A program made the position numbers and the translations under genes. From Chloroflexota bacterium (GTDB taxonomy: Bacteria > Chloroflexota > Dehalococcoidia > Dehalococcoidales > JAUYDJ01): a stretch of DNA of 11,623 nucleotides. The DNA is taken from NCBI GenBank assembly GCA_030690025.1, contig JAUYDJ010000028.1, positions 1 through 11,623 of the forward strand, in the 5' to 3' direction. Position 1 is the stretch's first letter. Every line of letters starts with the position of its first letter. The notes under the pieces are model-generated. The model worked only from the letters and a program-made list of their open reading frames with translations, was not told the DNA's origin and made no database searches. Below, piece by piece: positions 640 through 10,193 of this stretch.

Positions 640-718
640 TATTTTTGGCTTTTACTAAACGGGCGCCGCCCAAGATTTTTCTCCCTGAACCTCTTCCGTT
701 GACATTTCTCCTGCGAAC
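640..718 (+). repeat. Upstream promoter repeat, copy A (matches 7532-7614)
   Basis: This stretch and 7532-7614 match over about 80 bp by eye. Shared blocks include TTTACTAAACGGGC, TTCTCCCT-AACCTCTT and CTCCTGCGAACTACTATA, differing by scattered substitutions and one short gap. Both copies end at the -35/-10 region of a cytochrome promoter. Either a promoter region was duplicated or a regulatory sequence is conserved. The third cytochrome promoter (near 9142) keeps only the part from the -35 box onward. Confidence 0.75.
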
Positions 719-727
719 TACTATAAT
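699..727 (+). promoter_or_regulatory. Consensus sigma-70-type promoter of the bc-complex operon
   Basis: TTGACA at 699-704, a 17-bp spacer and TATAAT at 722-727 match the housekeeping consensus at all 12 positions. Transcription should start near 733-735, giving a leader of about 180 nt before the ATG at 918. The -10 box lies inside the operator that starts at 719, so a bound repressor would block polymerase. Confidence 0.85.
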
Positions 728-755
728 TCTTTAACATTACTAAGGTGGCGTAGTA
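719..755 (+). promoter_or_regulatory. Tandem BlaI-type operator, copy A (one half degenerate)
   Basis: There are two 18-bp units separated by 1 bp. Unit 1 (719-736) is TACTA-N8-TAACA, degenerate on its right side. Unit 2 (738-755) is an exact TACTA-N8-TAGTA. Placement relative to the promoter is identical to the sites at 7615 and 9162: it starts 20 bp after the beginning of the -35 box and 3 bp before the -10 box. Assignment to BlaI is inferred from the same site in the blaI promoter of this window and from the TACTA/TAGTA-type dyads bound by BlaI/MecI proteins. Confidence 0.75.
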
Positions 756-756
756 G

Positions 757-900
757 ATAATACTAAACTCCCGTTACCACAGCTGTAGAAATTATGCGAA
801 ATGGGGGGAATATACAACCAGAATTTTATTAACCTATACGGGGGCAACTACTGGGCTGGAGACAGGCCAAAGTGTCCAATCCCAGGAGTTCACTCCAATT
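757..900 (+). repeat. Conserved 5' leader, copy A (matches 9200-9343)
   Basis: The transcribed leader of the bc operon matches 9200-9343 closely. The best block is the ATTTTATT-ACCTATACGGG segment followed by CTACTGGGCTG-AGACAGGCCAAAG. A stem can be drawn between 848-855 and 881-888 (seven of eight pairs), with an inner CTG-GAGA-CAG hairpin at 856-865. In the other copy the outer stem also forms, with changed bases. This may be a structured leader or only a duplicated promoter region. I do not recognise a known riboswitch class in it. Confidence 0.6.
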
Positions 901-917
901 AGAGCTATGATAGTGTT

Positions 918-2888
918 ATGGTCAATCAAAAATATAAGGTCGACATTGTCGACGCAGACTACTACAGAAAAACGATAAGCTGTCAGAATGCCTGCCCGGT
1001 ACATACCGACGCCCGGGGCTACGTGAATGCTATCGCCGAGGGTGACTACCGGGCTGGCTACATTATGGCCCGGCAGCCAAACCCCTTTGCCTCGACCTGC
1101 GGCCGGGTGTGTAACGCCCCCTGTGAAGCCGCCTGCCGCCGGGGCAATATTGATGCCCCGGTCGCGATTCGTGCCCTGAAGCGCTTCGTCTGCGAGCGCT
1201 ACGGGGTGGAATCAAAAGAGCACCCGGCTATCTCCAGGACTCCGGGCGAGCGGCTTATGGTGCGCGCTCCGGGTAATTTCAACACGGTGGAGAGCCTGGC
1301 TAACCTGCTGGTCACGTCGGAAAGGAAGCCGAGGGATGGTAGGAGGGCAAGGATAGCCGTGATTGGCGCTGGACCGGCCGGGCTTACCGCAGCTCATGAC
1401 CTTGCTGCCATGGGACACCAAGTTACCATCTTTGAAGCTAGCCCTGTTGCCGGAGGAATGCTCCGCCTGGGAATTCCTGAATTCAGATTACCCCGCAAGC
1501 TGATTGAGCAGGAAATAGCCGATATACTGGAGTTGGGCGTTCAGCTGAAGCTGAATTCTCGTATCGGCGATGCTTTCAAATTAAAGACGTTACGTCAGGA
1601 AGGTTATGATGCTTTTTTCATCGCCGTAGGTCTTGGACGCGGACGTGAGCTTAACATTGAAGGGGTTGAGTTGGACGGTGTAATGCGCGCCATCGAGTTC
1701 CTGCTCAACGTGAACATGGGCTACAGGCTTGACCTGGGACAAAAAGTGCTGGTCGTAGGCGGAGGGGCAGTGGCTATGGATGTAGCCCGTACCGCGGCAC
1801 GCGCGGGCGAGACCGAGCCGGTGGAGGTGGATGGCGAGCTGGCCGCTGCTCTTGATGTGGCCAGAGAGGCTATCCGTGCCGGAACGCCCGAGGTTCACGT
1901 GCTCTGCCTCGAGCGCAGGGAGGGAATGCCGGTTGCCCCCGAAGAGGTGGAGGACGCTTTGGCTGAGGGAGTCATCCTCCACACTGCCCTCGGTCCCAAG
2001 CGTATACTGGGAGAAAAAGGAAGGGTGACCGGGTTGGAGACTCTTGCCGTAGCTTCGGTATTTGATAGTCAGGGCCGGTTCAATCCAAGCTTTACCCCGG
2101 CAACTGAGTCTGTCATAGAGGGAGACACAGTTATCCTAGCTGTAGGACAGAGGAGCGACCTATCCTTCATCAGCGAGGAGGATGGCATCAAGACCGACGC
2201 GCGGGGGACTATTGTGGTTGACCCGGATACGCTGGCCACTTCGGCGCCAGGAATATTTGCCGGGGGAGACGTCGTCTTCGGTCCCAGAATCATCATTGAG
2301 GCTGTCCGCGACGGGCATACCGCAGCCAGGCACATGAACCAATACCTCCGGGGTAAGCGGGCAAAGGTGGTTACCCGGGGATGGATGGAGACTGTGCCTG
2401 CTCAGAAGCTGCCCCGCCATGACCTGGATGCTCCCTACCAGCGTCTACCTACTCTTTCACTGGACAGGAGAGTGGGTATGGCAGAGGTGGAGCTTGATTA
2501 TCCCGGTGAGGTGGCGGAGAAACAAGCCTGGCGCTGCGTGAGATGCTACATACAGACGGTATTCAATGGCGATCTCTGTATTCTTTGTGGCGGTTGTGTG
2601 GACGTGTGCCCCTGGAGCTGCTTGAAGATGGTGAGATTAGACCACATAGCCGGAGACCAGCGAGTCAAAGACGTAATTCAGGCAAGGTACGGCATATCCT
2701 TTGATGAGCTACAAAACGGGAGTGGGGCGCTGAATGTGGGGACAGCCATGATTAAAGATGAAACACGCTGCACCCGCTGCGGCCTTTGCGCCGAGCGGTG
2801 CCCTACCGGCGCTATTACCATGGAAGACTTTCAGTTCAGCGAAGAACTGGTGGATGAGGACACCCCTGAGGACGCGGGTGTCAAATAG
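918..2888 (+). CDS. GltD-like FAD/NAD(P) oxidoreductase with ferredoxin domains, bc-complex associated
   Basis: This 656-residue cytoplasmic flavo-iron-sulfur protein probably exchanges electrons between NAD(P)H or ferredoxin and the membrane b6/Rieske complex encoded next. Domains in order: an N-terminal glutamate-synthase-type Fe-S domain (C22, C26, then C61-x3-C65-x3-C69-x3-C73); an FAD-binding Rossmann motif GAGPAG at 150-155; an NAD(P)-binding motif GGGAVA at 281-286; a GGDV FAD motif near 451; and a C-terminal two-cluster ferredoxin (C554-x2-C557-x2-C560-x3-C564 and C618-x2-C621-x2-C624-x3-C628), with an extra pair at C540/C543. The start is fixed by a stop at 900-902 in frame, but no Shine-Dalgarno sequence is visible. 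It is the first gene of a five-gene operon, 1 bp before cytochrome b. It is longer than GltD (about 470 residues) because of the ferredoxin tail. Flavin/Fe-S subunits of this kind have been noted with Rieske/b complexes, for example in anammox bacteria. The acceptor here is inferred from position only. Confidence 0.87.
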   Translation: MVNQKYKVDIVDADYYRKTISCQNACPVHTDARGYVNAIAEGDYRAGYIMARQPNPFASTCGRVCNAPCEAACRRGNIDAPVAIRALKRFVCERYGVESKEHPAISRTPGERLMVRAPGNFNTVESLANLLVTSERKPRDGRRARIAVIGAGPAGLTAAHDLAAMGHQVTIFEASPVAGGMLRLGIPEFRLPRKLIEQEIADILELGVQLKLNSRIGDAFKLKTLRQEGYDAFFIAVGLGRGRELNIEGVELDGVMRAIEFLLNVNMGYRLDLGQKVLVVGGGAVAMDVARTAARAGETEPVEVDGELAAALDVAREAIRAGTPEVHVLCLERREGMPVAPEEVEDALAEGVILHTALGPKRILGEKGRVTGLETLAVASVFDSQGRFNPSFTPATESVIEGDTVILAVGQRSDLSFISEEDGIKTDARGTIVVDPDTLATSAPGIFAGGDVVFGPRIIIEAVRDGHTAARHMNQYLRGKRAKVVTRGWMETVPAQKLPRHDLDAPYQRLPTLSLDRRVGMAEVELDYPGEVAEKQAWRCVRCYIQTVFNGDLCILCGGCVDVCPWSCLKMVRLDHIAGDQRVKDVIQARYGISFDELQNGSGALNVGTAMIKDETRCTRCGLCAERCPTGAITMEDFQFSEELVDEDTPEDAGVK

Positions 2889-2889
2889 A

Positions 2890-3648
2890 ATGTCAAACGT
2901 GCTGAATAAACAGTCCATTACCCGGAATCGGGTGTGGCGGTCTATCTTCCGCCACGGCTATCCCCACGACGAGGAAACCCAATCACGGGTCATGGCAGAT
3001 AACCTGTTATTGCACATCCATCCGGTCAAGGTCAAAAAGCACAGCCTGAAGATAACCTATACCTGGGGGTTGGGGTTCATCTCCTTTTTCCTTTTCGTGG
3101 TACTGGCGGCCACCGGGGCGTGGCTTATGTTCTTCTATGTCCCTTCAGTGGATCGTGCCTATGCTGATATCCAGGCCTTGGAGACCACGGTCGCCTTTGG
3201 CATATTGATACGGAGCATGCATCGCTGGGCGGCGCATCTCATGGTGCTAACTGTCTTCTTGCACCTGTGCCGGGTATTTTACACCGGCAGCTACAAGCAC
3301 CCCCGGGAGTTCAACTGGGTGGTCGGGGTAATGCTTTGGGTAGTGACCCTGCTCCTGAGCTTCACCGGCTACCTGCTACCCTGGGATCAGCTTTCCTACT
3401 GGGCGGTCACGGTGAGTACCAACATCGCGGGGTCATTCCCGTTTATCGGTGAAAAGATTCGTATCCTCATGCTGGGGGGGGCTGAGGCCGGGCAAGAGGC
3501 GCTCGTCAGGTTCTACGCGCTGCACATCGCCGTCCTGCCGCTGGTAATGACAGTCCTCATCGGTGTGCACTTCTGGCGCATCAGGAAGGACGGCGGCCTG
3601 TCCAGCAAGGCGGAGCAGGAAGAAGAACACTTGGAGACAGCCAAATGA
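2890..3648 (+). CDS. Cytochrome b6-type subunit of a quinol:cytochrome c oxidoreductase
   Basis: This 252-residue membrane protein corresponds to the N-terminal four-helix half of cytochrome b and binds the two b hemes of the quinol-oxidising complex. Axial histidine pairs are H111/H125 (in HRWAAH...FLHL) and H212/H227. The second pair has 14 residues between the histidines, the spacing of b6f-type rather than classical bc1 cytochromes b. The stretch GYLLPWDQLSYWA (160-172) is a typical Qo-side segment. I chose the ATG at 2890, 1 bp after the previous stop; an in-frame ATG further upstream lies inside the previous gene. No cysteine occurs before C127, so the N-terminal cysteine that anchors the extra c-type heme in cyanobacterial and Bacillus b6 is absent. 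The 3' end overlaps the next gene by four bases (ATGA). Confidence 0.93.
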   Translation: MSNVLNKQSITRNRVWRSIFRHGYPHDEETQSRVMADNLLLHIHPVKVKKHSLKITYTWGLGFISFFLFVVLAATGAWLMFFYVPSVDRAYADIQALETTVAFGILIRSMHRWAAHLMVLTVFLHLCRVFYTGSYKHPREFNWVVGVMLWVVTLLLSFTGYLLPWDQLSYWAVTVSTNIAGSFPFIGEKIRILMLGGAEAGQEALVRFYALHIAVLPLVMTVLIGVHFWRIRKDGGLSSKAEQEEEHLETAK

Positions 3649-4391
3649 AGGCAGAAAATCGGGAGGTTTTCCCCAGGGACCCCAGTAAGACCTATGGCCT
3701 CATGGCGCTGGTGAAGGGTACCAGCCCGCAGGTGGAAAAGGGGATGGAAGACACGGTGATGTCCTGGCCTCACTTGATCATACTGGAGGTGCTGGCCGCC
3801 CTGGGCACGACGGTGCTGCTCTTGTTCTGGTCTCTCGCCGCCAGTGCTCCCATGAGGGCGCCGGTCAATCCAGAGATATCGGATAACCCGGCGAAGGCAG
3901 CTTGGTACTTCCTGAACCTTCAGGAAATCCTGCTCCATATGAACCCGGTGCTGGCCGGACTGATTATACCGGCGCTGGTGATTATAGCCCTGATGGCAAT
4001 ACCCTATATTGACCGCAGTAAGAAGGACATCGGGGTGTGGTTCGCTTCAAAGAAGGGGCGCTCCATCGCCCTGTGGTCCGCCGTTTATACTGCAGTCTGG
4101 CTCATTGCTCTCATCATATTTGATGAGTTCGTCCGGGTGCGGTCGTTGGTCGCTGAATCCGAGCTAATGGCGGGATGGGTTATCCCTATCCTGGTGATAG
4201 GCGGACTGAGCACCCTGCTCTATGTCATTATCCGGCGATGGTGCCCCACCACCAGAGAGGTGATGGTAGGGCTTTTCACCGCCTTTGTGGTGAGCTACTT
4301 CTTGCTTATTATAAGCGCCCTCTTCTTCCGGGGCTACGGCCTGCACCTGACCTGGCCGTGGGATTTACCGCCGGGGGCGTTGCCTTTCTAA
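3645..4391 (+). CDS. Cytochrome b C-terminal half (extended subunit IV)
   Basis: This 248-residue membrane protein completes the split cytochrome b and contributes to the quinol-oxidation (Qo) site. It has about five hydrophobic segments (roughly residues 43-67, 103-121, 142-160, 174-194 and 206-230), more than the three of chloroplast-type subunit IV. Where the classical Qo motif PEWY would sit it has AAWY (85-88) followed by FLNLQEILL, so the motif glutamate is missing; E94 in LQE may take over proton transfer. Related A/P-WYFLxLQE variants are familiar from bc complexes of several anaerobic lineages, so this is probably natural divergence. No heme c motif is present. Translational coupling to cytochrome b is indicated by the ATGA overlap. 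Confidence 0.88.
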   Translation: MKAENREVFPRDPSKTYGLMALVKGTSPQVEKGMEDTVMSWPHLIILEVLAALGTTVLLLFWSLAASAPMRAPVNPEISDNPAKAAWYFLNLQEILLHMNPVLAGLIIPALVIIALMAIPYIDRSKKDIGVWFASKKGRSIALWSAVYTAVWLIALIIFDEFVRVRSLVAESELMAGWVIPILVIGGLSTLLYVIIRRWCPTTREVMVGLFTAFVVSYFLLIISALFFRGYGLHLTWPWDLPPGALPF

Positions 4392-4423
4392 AAGCACAGC
4401 GGAATTCAAGGAAAGGAACTGAT

Positions 4424-4972
4424 ATGGATACAGACCGTTGCCCTTCAGGAAGCTGTCCAGTACCGGGCGGAGGTGTAACCAGGCGGCAGTTCCTGAGTCG
4501 TGCCTGGTGGGTGGCAGGTGGCCTGCTGGTGGCCGAGGTGGCGGGGGGCCTGGTGGTCTCCCTGTGGCCGAAGGCGAAGGCGGGCGCCTTTGTCACCAAA
4601 ATAAGCGTCATGAGTCTGCAAGAGGCCAGGGCTATGCCCGTGGGCACGGTAGCCTATTTCACGGAGCAGCGTTTATATATCTCCCGGGTTGAGTCTGGAC
4701 TCCTCGCCCTCTACCGCAAGTGCCCCCACCTCGGCTGCGTGGTGCCGTGGCTTCCTGATGATCCGACGGAAGATGATCTGGCTCAAAGGGGGCGGTTCAA
4801 CTGTCCCTGCCACAGCGGCATCTTTGACCGCTACGGACTTGTCCACGGCGGTCCGCCCCCCAGACCGATGGATGTGTTCCCCATCACCATAGAGGGTGAT
4901 GAGGTGGTCGTGGATACCGGTAACCCTATCCAGCGTTCTCGTTTCGATGAATCTCAGGTGATAGAGATCTGA
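4424..4972 (+). CDS. Rieske [2Fe-2S] iron-sulfur protein with Tat signal/anchor
   Basis: This 182-residue Rieske subunit accepts electrons from quinol at the outer membrane face and passes them to the cytochrome c subunit. Cluster ligands are C100 and H102 (in CPHLGC) and C127 and H130 (in CPCHSG), with C105 and C129 forming the stabilising disulfide. A twin-arginine motif RRQFLS (20-25) precedes a hydrophobic segment at about 30-48, so it is probably exported folded and kept as an uncleaved anchor. The ATG at 4424 is preceded by GGAAAGGA, a good Shine-Dalgarno sequence; longer frames upstream overlap subunit IV and were rejected. Two cysteines (C6, C11) in the short cytoplasmic N-terminus are unusual and of unknown role. 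It sits 32 bp after subunit IV and 4 bp before the cytochrome c gene. Confidence 0.93.
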   Translation: MDTDRCPSGSCPVPGGGVTRRQFLSRAWWVAGGLLVAEVAGGLVVSLWPKAKAGAFVTKISVMSLQEARAMPVGTVAYFTEQRLYISRVESGLLALYRKCPHLGCVVPWLPDDPTEDDLAQRGRFNCPCHSGIFDRYGLVHGGPPPRPMDVFPITIEGDEVVVDTGNPIQRSRFDESQVIEI

Positions 4973-4976
4973 AGGT

Positions 4977-5663
4977 ATGCAATTTAAGATTTTCATTGGC
5001 CTGGTGCTAACCTTAATAATAGTGGTCTTCATACCCGTGTATTGGGCGACCGAGCCCGGGCGGCAGGAAAATGCCCTGGCCCGGCAGACAGCCGAGTCCG
5101 TAGACAGAGGCGCTGAGAAATATGCTTCAAACTGCGCCGCCTGTCACGGGAGTCAGGGCGAAAGGGGACTGGGTAGGGCACTGGCGGGTACCATGCTTGA
5201 CAGCAAGGCCCTGCAAAGGGTCATCGCCCGGGGTGTGCCCGGGACAGCCATGCCTCCTTGGGGTGTAGAGGATGGCGGTCCCCTGAAGGACTACCAGATC
5301 AGGGACCTTGTCGCCTTCATCGAAAGCCTGGGGGCTCCCGCGGCAGCGGCGCCAAAGCCTGTAGCGCCACCCTCAACACCCACGCCGGCTCCCCCTTCGC
5401 CTTCCCTATCACCCGCCGCACCATCAGTAGATGCTAGGGCGCTGTATACGGGCAAATGCAGCGTCTGTCACGGGGCGGACCTGCAGGGCAGCAGGTTTGG
5501 GCCACCACTGACCACGGAAAGCCTCAGAGCAAAGAGCGACGCCGATATACGCAAGGTCATCCAGGACGGAATACCCAGCAAGGGCATGCCCCCATTTGGG
5601 AACACTCTCAGCGCCGAGGAAATGGACGCCCTGCTTAGATTCATCAAAGACGCCGGGACTTAG
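4977..5663 (+). CDS. Membrane-anchored diheme cytochrome c of the bc-type complex
   Basis: This 228-residue protein has one N-terminal transmembrane anchor (about residues 5-23) and two class I cytochrome c domains outside the membrane. Heme 1 is bound by CAACH at 53-57 with probable distal ligand M92 (GTAMPPWG). Heme 2 is bound by CSVCH at 161-165 with probable ligand M204 (KGMPPFG). The domains are joined by a flexible Ala/Pro/Ser-rich linker (about 119-150). As the last gene of the operon, starting 4 bp after the Rieske stop with GAAGG just upstream, it is the likely electron exit of the complex, replacing cytochrome c1 or f. The two domains resemble each other and may come from an internal duplication. 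Confidence 0.9.
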   Translation: MQFKIFIGLVLTLIIVVFIPVYWATEPGRQENALARQTAESVDRGAEKYASNCAACHGSQGERGLGRALAGTMLDSKALQRVIARGVPGTAMPPWGVEDGGPLKDYQIRDLVAFIESLGAPAAAAPKPVAPPSTPTPAPPSPSLSPAAPSVDARALYTGKCSVCHGADLQGSRFGPPLTTESLRAKSDADIRKVIQDGIPSKGMPPFGNTLSAEEMDALLRFIKDAGT

Positions 5664-6117
5664 ATAGCACCGGACTCAGGCCAGTCCTCTTGAACCCTCA
5701 TCAGTTGCATGGCTAAGTCGGGCATATCGCATCAGAAGTACTTCCAGCTTCTGCACGTTCTCCTGCCCCACCCCGAAACCCGTGTAGGCAATGTTCTGGC
5801 AGGCTTCCAGGAGGCGTCTGCCCGGTGGTAACACAACCGGAAACGAAAATGGAGTTGGCCGCGTTCAGGCCAGGAGCTAGAGGAGGCGGAGATAGTATTC
5901 TCCACTCTTGCTATCCTGATTTTTTCAGAGCCAACGAAATGGATAATTGTGACCCGAGACATGAGGCTCAAGCTACTGTCTTGGTCAACGAGAGTCCTGT
6001 TCCTTCCCATGGTTCCTACTTACTCAAAATACCGTGTCATGTTAAATGACAGTCCGGTTGACAACAGTAGAAAGATACGTTGGAATCGCCAGGCTACCAG
6101 TGAGAACAAGTCCGGGT
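5664..6117. other. Gene-poor stretch between the bc operon and blaI
   Basis: No convincing gene lies here. A weak 5-bp hairpin at 5672-5687 (GGACT/AGTCC) follows the bc operon but has no T-run, so it is not called a terminator. A minus-strand reading frame at 5676-5834 looks partly protein-like and is listed separately. A short inverted repeat TGTCAT-N5-ATGACA lies at 6036-6052, followed by an isolated TTGACA at 6059-6064 with no good -10 partner. Confidence 0.5.
5676..5834 (-). pseudogene. Possible remnant of an unknown protein-coding gene
   Basis: The minus-strand frame, open from 5864 down to a TGA at 5678-5676, can start at a GTG (5834-5832) to give 52 residues. The central part (LLEACQNIAYTGFGVGQENV and LEVLLMRYARL) has the balanced composition and amphipathic helix pattern of real protein, unlike the other frames here. 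There is no Shine-Dalgarno sequence and no recognised family, so it may be the tail of a decayed gene. A chance ORF is also possible. Confidence 0.2.
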
Positions 6118-6155
6118 TTGTTGAAAACCGGCGAATTTGCTAATATGGCGTAGTA
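6118..6155 (+). promoter_or_regulatory. blaI promoter with a single BlaI-type operator
   Basis: An 18-bp site at 6138-6155 reads TGCTA-N8-TAGTA, matching unit 2 of the bc-operon operator at 15 of 18 positions. At the same offsets seen at the three cytochrome promoters lie TTGTTG (6118-6123) and TAATAT (6141-6146), separated by 17 bp. The boxes are weaker and no second operator unit follows. This predicts autoregulation of blaI at lower expression than its targets. The boxes alone would not be convincing; the conserved geometry is the argument. Confidence 0.65.
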
Positions 6156-6197
6156 GGTTTTATTCATTAATATAGGGCCGGCTGAACGGAAGGAAAC

Positions 6198-6647
6198 ATG
6201 TCTACTGCCATTCATAGGGCCTCGCTGGAGGCACAAGCAAATGCCGTATTAAAGAAATTGCTCGGCAGCCTTGAATTAGAGGTTATGAACTTCGTGTGGC
6301 AAACGGGGGAAACCACAGTTCAAGAAGTTACCGATGTGATTAACTATAAGAGACGTGTTGCCTATACAACGATAATGACCGTCATGGTGCATCTGGTCGA
6401 CAAAGGACTGCTTACGCGTATCAAAGAGGGAAAGAAATACCGCTACAAGGTTGCGTTAACCAGGCAGGAATTCATTCGGGAAAGTGCAAAGAGCCGACTA
6501 CAGGACCTGATAGGTGATTTTGGAGATATTGCCATTGCGCAGTTCCTTGAAGAAGCCCAAAAGATAGACGCTGATAGACTTGAATGGCTGAGGAAACTGG
6601 TTCAAGAAGGGGGCTATGAAAGCAATACCGCAGAACAGGACATTTAA
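6198..6647 (+). CDS. blaI: BlaI/MecI/CopY-family transcriptional repressor
   Basis: This 149-residue winged-helix repressor binds palindromic operators as a dimer and is inactivated by proteolysis in the classic systems. Family signatures are LGSLELEVMNFVWQTGETTV (22-41), the recognition helix region RRVAYTTIMTVMVHLVDKGLL (starting at 52) and the wing LTRIKEGKKYRYK (72-84). The C-terminal part (about 93-149) would be the helical dimerisation domain and cleavage region. AAGGA at 6190-6194 is a proper Shine-Dalgarno sequence for the ATG at 6198. The gene overlaps the M56 protease gene by 32 bp, the usual repressor-sensor arrangement. No beta-lactamase or penicillin-binding protein gene is present; the matching operators lie before cytochrome genes, so I infer a respiratory regulon. 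The symbol denotes the family, not a beta-lactam role. Confidence 0.92.
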   Translation: MSTAIHRASLEAQANAVLKKLLGSLELEVMNFVWQTGETTVQEVTDVINYKRRVAYTTIMTVMVHLVDKGLLTRIKEGKKYRYKVALTRQEFIRESAKSRLQDLIGDFGDIAIAQFLEEAQKIDADRLEWLRKLVQEGGYESNTAEQDI

Positions 6648-7482
6648 AGTACTGACCGGTACCGTTCTAGTGCTGGTGCTGCTTCTGGTCAGCAGCCTCA
6701 TCCATGCTTTCGTGACTGCTTGTCCGGATGGTTGGGCAAAGCTGGATGTTCTTTGCCTGTTCCTGCCCACCCATGATGACGTGGGCACTCACTTGCTGTC
6801 CTATGTCCTGGCGGGGATGGTAGTTGCCGGTGCATACCGCGGGTTGCTCTTGTGGCGTACGCAGCGGAAGAACCTGGCATTCTTAGCTCGCAATCTCAAG
6901 CTGAACGAGACACCGGATGGACAGTGGCGGCCAGCGATATTGGTTACAGGCTTGAAAGATAAAGTCAATCTTGTTGATTGTGAGACACCTTTCTGCTTCT
7001 GTTCCGGGTTCATTTCACCCCGGACACATCTATCCCGGGGTATGGCGGAAAAGCTGACACCCGAAGAATTGGAGGCTGTGCTACTCCACGAACAACACCA
7101 CATGGAAAACCATGACCCGCTCAAGATTCTGCTGGGCTGGATAGCTGTGTCAGCCCTGTTCTTTGTTCCTATCCTGAAAGATGTGTTCAAACGATATCTC
7201 ATGGAGAAAGAACTGGCTGCTGACCAAAGCGCCATACGCCACCAGGGCCACAAACATGGCATCGCCGGAGCCCTGTATAAGATGTTAGGGCAGAAACCCG
7301 CGGCTCTGAATAGCTCAGTTGCCTCTAGCGGACATCTCCTTGAGGCCCGCATTGATTACCTGATAGATGATAGTTCTCCACGCAGGCATAATATTTCCGC
7401 CCTGCGCCTAACTATAAGCCTTCTCGTCATAGCCTTTCTCGTCTTCACAATGTTGGCGCCTCTGCCAACGCACTCTCCATAG
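6616..7482 (+). CDS. M56-family (BlaR1-like) membrane metalloprotease lacking a PBP sensor domain
   Basis: This 288-residue integral membrane zinc protease is the likely signal-dependent partner that leads to BlaI cleavage. The zinc site is HEQHH at 158-162 (HExxH), with E199 in EKELAAD as probable third ligand. Hydrophobic segments are at about 13-33, 59-80, 170-190 and 265-283, the four-helix layout of BlaR1. BlaR1 and MecR1 (about 590 residues) carry an extracellular penicillin-binding domain after the last helix; here only a few residues (APLPTHSP) follow, so beta-lactam sensing is not expected. Cysteines C36 and C47 in the first extracytoplasmic loop, and C122, C127 and C129 near the conserved GFISPR segment, could serve sensing, but this is speculation. 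AAGAAGGGGG precedes the ATG at 6616, which overlaps the 3' end of blaI. Confidence 0.85.
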   Translation: MKAIPQNRTFKVLTGTVLVLVLLLVSSLIHAFVTACPDGWAKLDVLCLFLPTHDDVGTHLLSYVLAGMVVAGAYRGLLLWRTQRKNLAFLARNLKLNETPDGQWRPAILVTGLKDKVNLVDCETPFCFCSGFISPRTHLSRGMAEKLTPEELEAVLLHEQHHMENHDPLKILLGWIAVSALFFVPILKDVFKRYLMEKELAADQSAIRHQGHKHGIAGALYKMLGQKPAALNSSVASSGHLLEARIDYLIDDSSPRRHNISALRLTISLLVIAFLVFTMLAPLPTHSP

Positions 7483-7531
7483 GGCACTGTTGCAACTACC
7501 ATGTAGCTCACCCATAGAGCATTTCACTGAA

Positions 7532-7614
7532 TATACTTGGCCTTTACTAAACGGGCACCGACTAGGATGTTTTCTCCCTCAACCTCTTTGCTCCTTGACG
7601 TCCCTCCTGCGAAC
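7532..7614 (+). repeat. Upstream promoter repeat, copy B (matches 640-718)
   Basis: This is the second copy of the upstream promoter sequence described at 640-718. It lies 50 bp after the protease stop and runs into the promoter of the triheme lipoprotein. The two copies diverge mainly just upstream of the -35 box. Confidence 0.75.
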
Positions 7615-7623
7615 TACTATACT
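7595..7623 (+). promoter_or_regulatory. Promoter of the triheme lipoprotein gene
   Basis: TTGACG (7595-7600), a 17-bp spacer and TATACT (7618-7623) form a strong sigma-70-type promoter. The -10 box lies inside the operator at 7615-7651. The start of transcription should fall inside the palindrome, leaving a leader of only about 50 nt, in contrast to the long leaders of the other two cytochrome units. Confidence 0.83.
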
Positions 7624-7651
7624 ATCTTAGTAATACTAAGATAGTATAGTA
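7615..7651 (+). promoter_or_regulatory. Tandem BlaI-type operator, copy B: perfect 37-bp palindrome
   Basis: Two 18-bp arms (7615-7632 and 7634-7651) are exact reverse complements around the single base at 7633. Each arm is itself TACTA-N8-TAGTA, so the palindrome can be read as two complete operators 1 bp apart, their centres 19 bp apart. That would place two repressor dimers on nearly the same DNA face and allow cooperative binding. It covers the -10 box and the expected start site. As it lacks a following T-run and precedes the gene, I do not read it as a terminator. Confidence 0.82.
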
Positions 7652-7680
7652 ATAAGTTTCGAAAAATAGAAGGAGGCAAC

Positions 7681-8649
7681 GTGAAACACAAATCCGGAAT
7701 CAAAGTGATGGCGTTGGTAGTGGCTTTGAGTGCTGTGGCGGCCATGATTAGTGCCTGTCAGGGAGCGGCTGGGCCGCAAGGACCGGCCGGGCCGCAGGGG
7801 CCTCAAGGCCCGTCGGGAGCGACTCCGTCAGCCCCGGCGCCAAAGGTGAAGGCGCTAGGTGCGGAGACGCCCGTGGCCGCTTATCCCGCCGGTGTCCAGC
7901 TCCAGTTAGTGGGTCTGGCTGACGAATTCCGCATAAAGTACTCGATTACGCTGGTCAATGCTACCGACAGGGACCTGGGCAACATCACCATCACCGTCCC
8001 GTTGCCGTCCGAATCGCGGTTCTATGAGCTAGCGACTACTCCCGAAGGGGCCGCTCTCAAGGGCAAACCGGAATCAAGCGTAGAATGGACTCTGGGTAAA
8101 CTGGCGGCACGAACTTCTCTCGGCCCCTTCGAGTACAAGATATCAGTACCCAAGCAGACAGCTGGCCCCGCTTCAGCCAAGGCACAGTGGGAACTCCCCA
8201 ATGCCGGCAGTGTCAGCGCAGCCGGCCTCGACTTTTCCAAGATTGCCGTTAACCTGCCGAAGAGAGGCTGTACTGCCTGCCACGAACTTCGAGACAATAA
8301 GACCGGCGCCGTCACAATAGCCTATGAGGCAATGGAGCGCGGCGGCCCCAACCATCCGGGGCTACCATTTGACACCACCGTTAGTACCTGTCTTACTTGC
8401 CACAAGCCCGGGACGGGTGACCGCGAGGGTAAGGGCGCCGTCGCCCCACTGATGCTCAGGGACATCGTGCATCCGGCCCACCTGAACAGCCCGTCCTTCA
8501 CCGGTACATATAAGGGCAACTGCTTCACCTGTCACAACGTTGATGGCAAGGGCAATTTCACGCTCCTGGGTGAAAAGAGCAAGACCGATTTCCGTGGTAT
8601 TCCTGATGAGGCGCCTGTCAAAAGCATACCCCCGAGCGAGGGCAAATAG
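7681..8649 (+). CDS. Triheme c-type cytochrome lipoprotein with collagen-like N-terminus
   Basis: This 322-residue surface lipoprotein probably carries electrons beyond the bc-type complex. It has a lipoprotein signal peptide with ISAC and acylated C26, a Gly-Pro-Gln repeat (GPQGPAGPQGPQGPSG, 31-46), a beta-strand-rich middle domain with no cysteine (about 70-190), and three heme sites: CTACH (197-201), CLTCH (237-241) and CFTCH (281-285). H225, H264 and H267 are candidate distal ligands, so bis-histidine hemes are likely. The Gly-rich collagen-like stretch followed by beta and multiheme regions recalls OmcA/MtrC-type outer cytochromes, but this protein is much shorter and the relationship is uncertain. 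The GTG start is set by AGGAGG at 7671-7676. Direct control by the 37-bp operator just upstream is likely. Confidence 0.83.
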   Translation: MKHKSGIKVMALVVALSAVAAMISACQGAAGPQGPAGPQGPQGPSGATPSAPAPKVKALGAETPVAAYPAGVQLQLVGLADEFRIKYSITLVNATDRDLGNITITVPLPSESRFYELATTPEGAALKGKPESSVEWTLGKLAARTSLGPFEYKISVPKQTAGPASAKAQWELPNAGSVSAAGLDFSKIAVNLPKRGCTACHELRDNKTGAVTIAYEAMERGGPNHPGLPFDTTVSTCLTCHKPGTGDREGKGAVAPLMLRDIVHPAHLNSPSFTGTYKGNCFTCHNVDGKGNFTLLGEKSKTDFRGIPDEAPVKSIPPSEGK

Positions 8650-8689
8650 ATGATGAGCAAGAGGGGCCGGTGGGAACAAAGGAGGCAAT

Positions 8690-8830
8690 TTGGGCCCCAA
8701 TATTCGCGGAAAAACGGCCGAGGATATCAAGCAAGCACTCGGTGGCGACGCGATGAGCTTCATCTCTTTGACTGGTGAAGAGATTGAAGCGGTTACCACC
8801 TACCTAAAGTACCTGGAGTCACAACCATAA
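8690..8830 (+). pseudogene. Orphan C-terminal half of a cytochrome c domain
   Basis: A frame from a TTG at 8690 to TAA at 8828-8830 gives 46 residues. GPNIRGKTAEDIKQAL, AMSFISLTGEEIEA and VTTYLKYLE match the distal half of a class I cytochrome c, including the Met that ligates heme (M22) and the C-terminal helix. The CxxCH half is missing. AAAGGAGG at 8679-8685 sits 4 bp before the TTG, so translation as a tiny protein is possible. The frame is also open back to 8657 (GGNKGGNLGPNI), typical of the loop before this motif. I infer either a deletion and frameshift that removed the heme-binding half of a domain once fused to the triheme protein, or a remnant of a separate cytochrome. Confidence 0.5.
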
Positions 8831-9141
8831 CCCTTTGAGAATACTAAAATGCAGAGGGATGGTTACCTTGAACGGCAAGTGGTGTCTTTACTACAGTGGT
8901 CTAGGTTTGGCCCAAATTGTCAAATGGAGCGTGGCTCTCCATTGAATGAGACGATGTATTTCTTGGTTCATAGGTGGCACAAACGTAGCGCCTGTGCGTA
9001 TTCCAGTATGCTGCGTCGTGGTTCCACTGAGTCACCACGAAGTGTCACCTTTACCTCCTTCAGGACGAGCCCTTCGGTAACACTAATTTTGACGCAACTA
9101 CACCACTTTCGGTAACTTTTATTATGAGTCAATGCGCCCTC
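8831..9141. other. Intergenic stretch before the third cytochrome promoter
   Basis: No recognisable gene is present. An 88-codon plus-strand frame at 8849-9115 has no Shine-Dalgarno sequence, a composition rich in Ser, Arg and Thr and no domain pattern, so I do not call it. No terminator hairpin is seen after the cytochrome fragment. Confidence 0.5.
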
Positions 9142-9170
9142 TTGACAAATCTCCTGCGGACTACTAAACT
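9142..9170 (+). promoter_or_regulatory. Promoter of the diheme lipoprotein gene
   Basis: TTGACA (9142-9147), a 17-bp spacer and TAAACT (9165-9170) show the same arrangement as the other two cytochrome promoters. The -10 box is one base weaker than TATACT. Transcripts would carry a leader of about 210 nt. Confidence 0.78.
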
Positions 9171-9198
9171 ATCTTAGTATTACTAAGGTAGCATAGTA
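9162..9198 (+). promoter_or_regulatory. Tandem BlaI-type operator, copy C
   Basis: There are two exact TACTA-N8-TAGTA units, at 9162-9179 and 9181-9198, 1 bp apart. The overall 37-bp dyad has 15 of 18 arm positions complementary. Position relative to the -35 and -10 boxes is identical to copies A and B. Confidence 0.8.
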
Positions 9199-9199
9199 G

Positions 9200-9343
9200 A
9201 TAAGGTTGCCTCTATTACCTCAGCCGTGGGAATCATACGAAGCAGGAGGAACACAACCAGAAATTTTATTGACCTATACGGGAGCATCTACTGGGCTGAA
9301 GACAGGCCAAAGTTCCAGTCCCAGAGGTTCACTACAACGACGC
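9200..9343 (+). repeat. Conserved 5' leader, copy C (matches 757-900)
   Basis: This is the second copy of the long leader found before the bc operon. Identity is strongest in the segment around CCTATACGGG and CTACTGGGCTG. The outer stem (CTACTGGG with CCCAGAGG) still forms, with one changed pair becoming a G-T wobble, which weakly favours a conserved RNA fold. The triheme gene lacks this leader. Confidence 0.6.
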
Positions 9344-9386
9344 ACAAACTGATGCGAAAGGTGGAAATTTTCTAAGGAGGCAAATC

Positions 9387-10193
9387 ATGAAGAGAGCTGG
9401 GATTATTCTAGGCATACTCGCGGTTTTATTTTTAGGGCTAGTATTGCTGGCAGCCTGCGCACGACCTGCGCCAACTCCGGCACCAGTGACGCCCACTCAG
9501 CCAACAACTCCAGCGGCACCGGCTCCAGCCACTGTAGCCCTGGGAGGGAAGCTTTACGACAACTGGATGAAGACAGCCCAAATAGCAACTCCTAAAGAGA
9601 ATTCCCCCCTCTGGGCTACTCAAACCACCAATACCCGGACCGGCAGCGATACTTGGCGATGCAAGGAGTGCCATGGCTGGGATTACAAAGGTAAGGATGG
9701 CGCCTACGGTAAGGGTTCGCATTTAACTGGCTTCCCAGGGGTTTATGGTGCGGCCACGACCAAAACCGTTGCTGAGTTGACATCTATACTCAAAGGCTCG
9801 ACTAATTCTAACCACAACTTCTCCACCTACCTTAACGCGGAACAAACCTCTGCCCTGGCTGCCTTCCTCAAGGTAGGGGCGGTCCTAGACGAGACCCAGT
9901 ATATTGATTATGCTACCAAGAAACCTAAGTCGGCCGATGCCGCCAAGGGCAAACAGCTTTTCGAGAGCAGCTGCGCCGCCTGCCACGGGGTAGACGGCAA
10001 GACGCTTAACTTCGGGAGCCCGGAAAAGCCGGAGTACGTAGGGACTATAGCTATTGATAATCCCTGGGAGTTCCTCCATAAGGTCCGCTTCGGCCAGCCG
10101 GGAACCGCCATGCCAACTGGCGTGGAGCAACAATGGAGCATTCAGAATGTGATAGACATGCTATCTCATTCCCAGACACTTCCTCAAAAGTAG
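9387..10193 (+). CDS. Diheme c-type cytochrome lipoprotein
   Basis: This 268-residue lipoprotein is a predicted outer-face electron carrier. The signal peptide ends in LAAC with acylated C24, followed by an Ala/Pro/Thr-rich tether (25-49) that lets the heme domains move away from the membrane. Heme 1 is CKECH (92-96) in a domain containing the WRCKECHGWDYKG segment, with H112 or H143 as possible distal ligand. Heme 2 is CAACH (196-200) in a class I domain with probable ligand M242 (GTAMPTG). AAGGAGG at 9374-9380 is an excellent Shine-Dalgarno sequence for the ATG at 9387. It is transcribed alone from its own operator-controlled promoter and ends at a strong terminator. It is a plausible acceptor for the anchored diheme subunit of the bc complex, given the shared promoter type. 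Confidence 0.88.
   Translation: MKRAGIILGILAVLFLGLVLLAACARPAPTPAPVTPTQPTTPAAPAPATVALGGKLYDNWMKTAQIATPKENSPLWATQTTNTRTGSDTWRCKECHGWDYKGKDGAYGKGSHLTGFPGVYGAATTKTVAELTSILKGSTNSNHNFSTYLNAEQTSALAAFLKVGAVLDETQYIDYATKKPKSADAAKGKQLFESSCAACHGVDGKTLNFGSPEKPEYVGTIAIDNPWEFLHKVRFGQPGTAMPTGVEQQWSIQNVIDMLSHSQTLPQK

Follow-up and report, generated by a model that had tools for sequence, protein, structure and literature searches.

The 11,623-nucleotide stretch of DNA analyzed here, hereafter the window, is one complete contig (C162) of a 1.56-megabase (Mb), 274-contig Chloroflexota genome (G000) that is about 75% complete, and it carries the genes of a BlaI-type repressor and an M56 peptidase among respiratory cytochrome genes. 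All window genes are on the plus strand, in the order flavin/4Fe-4S oxidoreductase, cytochrome b in two parts, Rieske protein, diheme cytochrome c, blaI, M56, triheme cytochrome c and diheme cytochrome c. An earlier note on this DNA had proposed that repressor and peptidase form a dedicated, self-regulated switch for the cytochrome units, as four promoters appeared to share one geometry. Domain scans with Pfam, which covered ten window proteins, matched the BlaI (PF03965) and M56 (PF05569) families as claimed; no beta-lactamase was found among the ten, in agreement with the statement that no beta-lactam resistance gene is present. A defense-system scan returned just two weak matches, both to BlaI. 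The features of the window are the following:

699..727, plus strand: promoter of the flavin/iron-sulfur (Fe-S) oxidoreductase and cytochrome bc operon; TTGACA at 699-704, 17 base pairs (bp), TATAAT at 722-727; 12/12 to consensus
719..755, plus strand: tandem operators of the bc promoter; 719-736 with two mismatches and holding the -10 box, 738-755 exact
756..917, plus strand: 5' leader of the bc operon; 774-898 is 82% like the diheme leader
918..2888, plus strand: flavin/4Fe-4S NAD(P)-binding oxidoreductase, GltD/NfnB-like (Pfam Fer4_20, Pyr_redox_2 and Fer4)
2890..3648, plus strand: N-terminal part of cytochrome b, ExtP-like (PF00033; NF040969 ExtP, 291.7 bits, cutoff 290)
3645..4391, plus strand: C-terminal part of cytochrome b, weakly ExtQ-like (PF00032, 22.2 bits; NF040970, 36.8 bits, below the cutoff of 150)
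4421..4972, plus strand: Rieske Fe-S protein (PF00355)
4977..5663, plus strand: diheme cytochrome c, last gene of the bc operon (PF13442 in two stretches; two CXXCH motifs)
6118..6155, plus strand: blaI promoter; TTGTTG, 17 bp, extended -10 TGC-TAATAT, single operator TGCTAATATGGCGTAGTA at 6138-6155
6198..6647, plus strand: BlaI/MecI/CopY-type repressor, 149 amino acids, no cysteine (PF03965, expectation value (E) 1.7e-26)
6616..7482, plus strand: M56 membrane metallopeptidase, 288 amino acids (PF05569); overlaps blaI by 32 nucleotides
7595..7651, plus strand: triheme promoter; TTGACG, 17 bp, TATACT; tandem exact operators at 7615-7632 and 7634-7651
7681..8649, plus strand: triheme cytochrome c, lipoprotein by its signal sequence (judged by eye); GTG start
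9142..9198, plus strand: diheme promoter; TTGACA, 17 bp, TAAACT; tandem exact operators at 9162-9179 and 9181-9198
9199..9386, plus strand: 5' leader of the diheme gene, related to 756-917
9387..10193, plus strand: diheme cytochrome c, lipoprotein by its signal sequence (judged by eye) (PF13442)

The promoter geometry described earlier was reproduced by script: at all four promoters a -35 box (TTGACA at 699, TTGTTG at 6118, TTGACG at 7595 and TTGACA at 9142) is followed by 17 bp, a -10 box and an operator that begins 20 bp past the start of the -35 box, at 719, 6138, 7615 and 9162. The operators had been correctly located, but not all of them are exact, with two mismatches in the copy at 719 and one in that at 6138, and second operators had been overlooked at three promoters. 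Exact copies of TACTA-N8-TAGTA lie at 738, 7615, 7634, 9162 and 9181, and at the three cytochrome promoters the second operator (738, 7634, 9181) follows 19 bp downstream of the first, while a single site was found at the blaI promoter. At the tandem promoters the -10 box falls within the first operator and the second follows closely after the expected start, an arrangement compatible with repression. A different build is seen at blaI, whose promoter has a poor -35 box, a left operator arm TGCTA that forms an extended -10, and one operator; this promoter was not listed by a consensus promoter scan, and on its own it is not significant, since TTGAC-N15-operator with up to 3 mismatches occurs at 36 genome places versus 16 for the reversed control. 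Support for this promoter comes from the recurrence of its register in relatives, as the same build is present in the two closest orthologues, with TTGCAC in G012 (a relative from the same order) and TTGCAG in G085, each followed by TGCTA at +20, and hence in 3/3 close orthologues.

Operator matches with up to two mismatches number 11 in the window against a shuffle mean of 2.36, and 0/200 shuffles reach 11. The exact motif occurs at 8 places in the 1.56-Mb genome, where about 0.8 would be expected by chance (reversed-pattern control, 0), and 5 of these are in the window contig, although base composition predicts 0.006 in 11.6 kilobases (kb); the probability of 5 or more is 5e-14, before allowing for shared ancestry. 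All five are at cytochrome promoters; elsewhere in the genome, exact sites precede ftsZ and the gene of a LuxR-type regulator. Shared ancestry is visible around the promoters: those of the bc operon and the triheme gene are 85% alike over some 60 bp of upstream sequence, and the bc and diheme leaders are 82% alike over about 126 bp. The former stretch, upstream of the -35 box (637-695 and 7529-7588), could be an extra regulator site or mere copied sequence. Across the three tandem promoters, 18/20 positions of the operator arms are identical, compared with 7/16 of the inner N8 and 10/14 of the spacer between -35 box and operator; with the flanks related by descent and the arms so well kept, the geometry was copied and the arms were maintained. 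Searching the 393 genomes of the class for tandem operators with up to two mismatches gave four matching genomes, namely the window genome, G204, G414 and G076. Both the G204 and the G414 match fall within a hisC-like gene and were attributed to chance; at this tolerance the tandem form is so far known from the window genome only, with G076 as a further candidate.

We then turned to the repressor itself. The PF03965 match spans residues 22-137 of the 149 (93 bits, cutoff 22.6), and the nearest solved structure is 2g9w (E 2e-10), which we take to be Rv1846c, the BlaI of Mycobacterium tuberculosis, with MecI at 8e-7. The best NCBIfam match is CopY/TcrY, at 62.8 bits, below its cutoff of 121.95; on this score, and as BlaI is without any cysteine, its identity as a CopY copper repressor was rejected. 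CopY is described as carrying C-terminal Cys-X-Cys copper motifs, and its operators have been described (PMC7253601). Among the best 80 of at least 555 BlaI relatives, drawn from named records of many phyla by profile search of genome contigs, TACTA-N6..8-TAGTA with at least 9 of 10 arm bases lies no more than 250 bp upstream of the blaI match in 37/80 loci, compared with 65/4000 plain shuffles. The same test found it at 11/18 blaI genes of the class, the window included; G085, G109, G077 and G074 score 8, the second BlaI of G086 scores 7, G064 and G165 have nothing, and the G062 blaI has no upstream sequence. Judged from these upstream regions, the motif is the operator of the BlaI family. 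The expectation that it would be found near blaI homologues in relatives was thus borne out, and the putative self-regulation site, an operator in register at the blaI promoter that recurs in G012 and G085, is consistent with what had been proposed.

Away from the blaI promoter, the 79/80 loci covered (L014 excluded) hold in total 48 further exact sites with N7 or N8 (reversed control, 6 over whole loci). Twenty of these, in 19 loci, fall 1.2-1.75 kb after the start of the blaI match, the slot of the gene after M56, and an M56 match lies between in 18/19 (not L021); the window triheme operators (7615) occupy the same slot, 1.4 kb after the blaI start. In the 13/19 loci scanned, the first gene behind the slot site is FtrD-like in three, MacB/FtsX in three, SCO1/SenC in one and an NHL propeller in one, and has no Pfam match in five (L017, L018, L019, L030, L044). 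Moreover, a multicopper oxidase is encoded as second gene in L019, and a cupredoxin domain occurs further along the L032 run, so that some genes behind M56 elsewhere are predicted to encode extracytoplasmic metal or redox proteins (SCO1/SenC, FtrD-like, multicopper oxidase, permease). The promoter register was found at 8 places in the 80 loci; taking these as chance background was rejected, because the loci are themselves BlaI loci, one is G012 again, and 4/7 others lie just behind M56 (L019, L022, L030, L032).

In the M56 protein, the motif HEQHH stands at residue 158 and a candidate third ligand is the Glu of EKELAAD (from 197); HExxH is present in 16/16 aligned M56 proteins. The domain scan of its 288 residues found M56/M48 alone and no penicillin-binding sensor domain, and the match to BlaR1 structures is very weak (E 0.93). 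In 8/8 M56 proteins linked to the diheme gene (from L131, L132, L133, L134, L135, L136, L138 and L139) the sequence closes with a hydrophobic stretch and a terminal cysteine (tails FFLC, FFVC, FLIC); a terminal cysteine is also present in 2/8 other aligned M56 proteins (G109, G291), and the window M56 ends without it. As the BlaR1 sensor is reported to come after the last membrane helix (PMC9834060), it is a fair guess that this terminal cysteine lies on the outer membrane face.

Within the class, 38/393 genomes have BlaI (E 1e-15 or better) and 17 have an orthologue of the diheme lipoprotein (E 1e-40 or better), with both in 9 (hypergeometric 4e-6, uncorrected for kinship). In 8/9 of these, all from different families, blaI-M56 is directly upstream of the diheme orthologue; in the window the triheme gene intervenes. 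An operator scoring 9-10/10 lies at most 350 bp upstream of the diheme gene in 7/9 BlaI-linked genomes versus 0/8 unlinked ones (Fisher 0.002; 78/3400 plain shuffles), the linked genomes below the threshold being G097, with 8, and G117, with 6. In addition, the exact 17-bp pattern TACTAC-N5-GTAGTA occurs at 3 places in 19 genomes, all of them at a diheme promoter. Near the diheme gene of unlinked genomes, related response regulators were found in 5/8, with a histidine kinase beside them in 4. Control of a cytochrome by BlaI is therefore best supported, as a prediction, for the diheme lipoprotein, and the claim that the operators stand over cytochrome units holds for this gene, a recurrent operator-bearing neighbor of blaI-M56 in other families, but it does not extend to the bc operons of six relatives. 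The five-gene bc operon is also present in G106 (where the contig ends inside the flavin gene), G069, G097 and G086, while G074 has a split or shortened flavin gene and fused cytochrome b parts, and in G245 no flavin gene was found beside it.

The regulon was further searched in G000, G012, G085 and G245, allowing no mismatches, with TTG-N17-TVCTA-N8-TAGTA and the corresponding N18 pattern. Eight promoter-nested places were found: blaI, triheme, diheme and C10 in G000, blaI and C96 in G012, and two in C36 of G085, with none in G245 and 0 in reversed controls; the degenerate 719 site and the G085 blaI site, missed by these patterns, were recovered by the register script. Behind the C10 promoter lie the genes of an ArsM-like methyltransferase, of a protein that we take to be DsrE-like and of an ArsP_1 permease. 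The C96 site is between the end of an M56 gene and the same permease, which is followed by a gene with a DsbD_TM match below cutoff, and of the G085 sites one precedes the permease (behind M56) and the other a rhodanese. The permease, weakly like the SO_0444 copper/zinc (Cu/Zn) efflux family (38-54 bits, cutoff 300), is thus behind an operator in 3/3 clade genomes, being the third gene in G000 and the first in the other two, and the window promoters share their build with those in G012, G085 and C10. For this reason the switch cannot be called dedicated to cytochromes, as had been suggested. The ArsM-like and rhodanese matches are below curated cutoffs, and the ArsM-like, DsrE-like and rhodanese-like frames each contain one in-frame TGA where cysteine or selenocysteine fits (judged by eye). 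A SECIS_4 match elsewhere in C10 suggests that selenoproteins are at home there. The two TGA-bearing C10 frames are at 978-2224 of L172, minus strand; the rhodanese-like frame (L124 3277-3780), behind a BlaI-type promoter, has its TGA in YCAxPQE, probably at the active-site position (also by eye). Overall, the proteins, the sites, their register and recurrence, the co-occurrence and the conserved target are seen in the sequence.

In comparing known systems, MecI/MecR1 was placed with BlaI/BlaR1 of Staphylococcus aureus. Like the latter, the window has a PF03965 repressor, an M56 peptidase with HExxH and palindromic operators of the TAC/GTA type, but unlike it no penicillin-binding sensor domain, beta-lactamase or PBP2a target was found in the window (PMC9834060). 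BlaI_0696 and BlaI_1845 of Clostridium thermocellum are reported to have palindrome pairs for four protomers, autoregulation and very small regulons, similarly to what is proposed here, whereas their targets are thought to be beta-lactam response genes (PMC8457756). The regulon of M. tuberculosis BlaI (Rv1846c) includes an energy-metabolism operon, atp, which mycobacterial BlaI is reported to repress, but the targets named there, blaC, sigC, atp and a division gene, include no cytochromes (PMC12565901, PMC5874750, PMC8265638). Closest in kind is PetR/PetP of Synechocystis sp. PCC 6803, described as a BlaI/BlaR1-type pair controlling cytochrome c6 and plastocyanin, in which copper is the signal and PetR acts as repressor of petE and as activator of petJ (PMC7896320, PMC13421787). 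Common to both, taking the window targets as predicted, are a BlaI-family regulator beside a BlaR1-family protease, the lack of a beta-lactam role, electron-carrier targets including a c-type cytochrome, and a small regulon. The likeness is one of layout (adjacent BlaI and M56 genes, operators at cytochrome promoters) rather than of direct sequence comparison, control itself being predicted; what differs is that the window operators are over the -10 box at all four promoters and that the targets are a bc operon, multihaem lipoproteins and a methyltransferase/permease run. Considering PetR/PetP and the mycobacterial atp operon, calling this an undescribed system was too strong: by analogy it is a known device in a new form, not a new device, as the same kind of switch is known for cyanobacterial photosynthetic electron carriers. 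Among the matches listed in the open-access literature, we found no BlaI/M56 cytochrome regulon in Chloroflexota and no BlaI-family cytochrome repressor besides PetRP.

Based on these results, we consider it rather probable that BlaI and M56 constitute a proteolytic derepression switch of the PetR/PetP and BlaI/BlaR1 kind, induced by an extracytoplasmic signal. BlaI dimers would occupy the 18-bp palindromes that cover the -10 box and the start region, thereby blocking RNA polymerase, with two dimers side by side at the three cytochrome promoters and one at blaI, the latter amounting to autorepression. The signal would cause M56 to cleave BlaI, and the whole set would then be induced, namely the NAD(P)H/flavin-cytochrome bc operon, the triheme and diheme lipoproteins, blaI-M56 and the distant ArsM-like/DsrE-like/ArsP_1-permease run. 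Binding by BlaI, cleavage by M56, the sense of regulation and the signal are what we infer here, and the signal would most likely be a metal (copper first) or a thiol-redox or metalloid stress.

A stricter version, a PetR/PetP-like copper switch in which M56 would be activated by copper, copper proteins would take the place of haem carriers, and BlaI would act as repressor at some promoters and as activator at others, can draw on the PetRP precedent, on CopY/TcrY as the best NCBIfam match of BlaI, on the weak Cu/Zn efflux likeness of the permease, and on the SCO1, multicopper oxidase and cupredoxin-domain proteins in other BlaI/M56 gene runs. It seems unlikely all the same, considering that no copper protein is among the ten window proteins scanned, that an operator over the -10 box at all four window promoters suits repression and not activation, and that BlaI has no cysteine. 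If the inducer were instead a metalloid or chalcogen (selenite, tellurite, arsenite, sulfane sulfur), an ext-like chain and the methyltransferase/permease run would be co-induced to reduce, methylate and export the toxicant, a possibility that we find doubtful. The extHIJKLMNOPQS cluster of Geobacter sulfurreducens is reported to combine a rhodanese (ExtH) with Rieske, ExtP, ExtQ and c-cytochromes (PMC5877670), and the window likewise has a Rieske protein, small c-cytochromes and a cytochrome b just above the ExtP cutoff, with promoters of the same build before the ArsM-like gene (the DsrE-like and ArsP_1-permease genes behind it) and before the G085 rhodanese. On the other hand, the ExtQ match is far under its cutoff, the ArsM-like and rhodanese matches are under theirs, and bc operons of the same build in relatives are without operator. 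The Geobacter cluster, some genes of which are reported Fur targets, also has larger multihaem cytochromes, the rhodanese and a porin (ExtI), and no porin or rhodanese is among the ten window proteins scanned.

That the shared geometry is only a duplicated promoter cassette, whose sites have no regulatory meaning for the cytochromes, is suggested by promoter flanks that are 82-85% alike, but appears very unlikely given that the arms of the three tandem promoters are so much better kept than the inner N8 (although the spacer is also kept) and that the G012, G085 and C10 promoters share the build. A classical response to beta-lactams or cell-wall damage, with cytochromes as incidental targets, would explain why the proteins belong to the BlaI and M56 families; as only M56/M48 domains were found in M56, with its poor BlaR1 structure match, and no beta-lactamase was found among the proteins scanned, we regard this as the least credible of the readings.

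Returning to the BlaI/M56 derepression switch, several results weigh against it, or against its full extent. The window promoters are not independent samples, because their flanks are shared by descent, and the exact sites before ftsZ (C146) and the LuxR-type regulator gene (C127), which lack the -35 register (2 and 3 mismatches), had to be set aside as likely chance. In 19 genomes the reversed control of the 17-bp pattern occurs at 11 places, more than the pattern's 3, so that it is the placing and not the number of this operator that is special. In the BlaI tree (19 rows), the window BlaI groups with those of G012 and G085 (93/97), apart from the eight diheme-linked BlaIs (82/84, moderate), and both groups, assessed relative to one another, remain intact in 100% of 200 bootstrap trees; operator length likewise separates an 18-bp form in the former clade from a 17-bp form in the latter. 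With the window BlaI in the other subclade, the diheme link is not one by orthology of the regulator, so the diheme target may have come under BlaI control twice, or one early link may have changed both regulator and operator. Outside the class, no BlaI was found beside diheme relatives in 9 regions of 8 genomes. No operator scoring at least 9 was found in the bc regions of six relatives, though G097, G074, G086 and G245 have BlaI, and therefore BlaI control of the bc operon, not seen in these six, may be recent, through promoter copying. G245, whose BlaI is of the 18-bp type, has its three exact sites, which lack the promoter register, ahead of a sortase-like gene and in the stretch that separates blaI from a DUF3105 gene. 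Finally, the metal theme is partial, because 3/13 first genes behind M56, or behind its slot, are MacB/FtsX and 5/13 have no Pfam match.

Tentatively, these threads could be joined in one picture, in which a BlaI/M56 pair lacking a beta-lactam sensor would join the ext-like chain and the predicted selenoproteins of the ArsM-like/DsrE-like/permease run into one respiratory regulon that responds to a metal or chalcogen. The promoters of this regulon would have spread as a tandem-operator cassette, and two BlaI subclades, one with 17-bp and one with 18-bp operators, would each have recruited the diheme gene on their own, replacing the histidine-kinase/response-regulator pair found beside it in some other families; the C-terminal cysteine of the diheme-linked M56 would be a possible sensing residue. 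The proteolytic switch, if it operates as proposed, would add a bc-type respiratory module in Chloroflexota to drug resistance and photosynthesis as functions under protease-triggered BlaI systems. Moreover, the sequence rule blaI, M56, operator, target offers a way to find what BlaI/M56 pairs control across phyla, and what sensor-less M56 peptidases detect becomes testable with few targets.

Other observations concern single sites and genes. The C146 exact site (L174 3113-3130) is about 11 bp before the ftsZ start codon, probably by chance; mycobacterial BlaI is reported to affect a division gene (PMC12565901, PMC5874750, PMC8265638). The G245 sites, at L126 8245, 10439 and 10524, may point to other targets for such a BlaI of the 18-bp type. 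A stand-alone cyclic-nucleotide-binding-like protein is encoded ahead of the diheme gene in two genomes; in a third its gene precedes the flavin-bc operon, and in G085 the flavin gene (L167 7643-8125, L169 658-1134, L224 9362-9841, L124 4109-4579). In L246 and L249, which are from outside the class, the neighbors of the diheme relatives are an Fe-S protein, other haem proteins and a large oxidoreductase-like protein whose start is of the twin-arginine type, a neighborhood that by eye resembles alternative complex III or polysulfide reductase modules.

With respect to the gene models, the likeness of the flavin oxidoreductase to NfnB is our assumption, and the start of the N-terminal cytochrome b part at the ATG at 2890 was assigned by eye, family searches having used 2836-3648. 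Past the triheme stop, another frame at 8650-8830 reads by eye like the C-terminal end of a cytochrome c domain, and the triheme open reading frame may be shortened by a frame change or an assembly error. The leaders gave no Rfam match, either for the whole window at gathering scores or for 690-920 at E up to 5; as their folding is also no better than that of shuffles (z -1.0 and -0.9), an RNA element was rejected, as was, by eye, a coding origin of the repeat. Between 774-898 and 9215-9337 the leaders are 82% alike, with a 52-base core (822-873, 9262-9313) that is 92% alike and better kept than its surroundings, and one further partial match in the genome covers 31 bases in contig C171.

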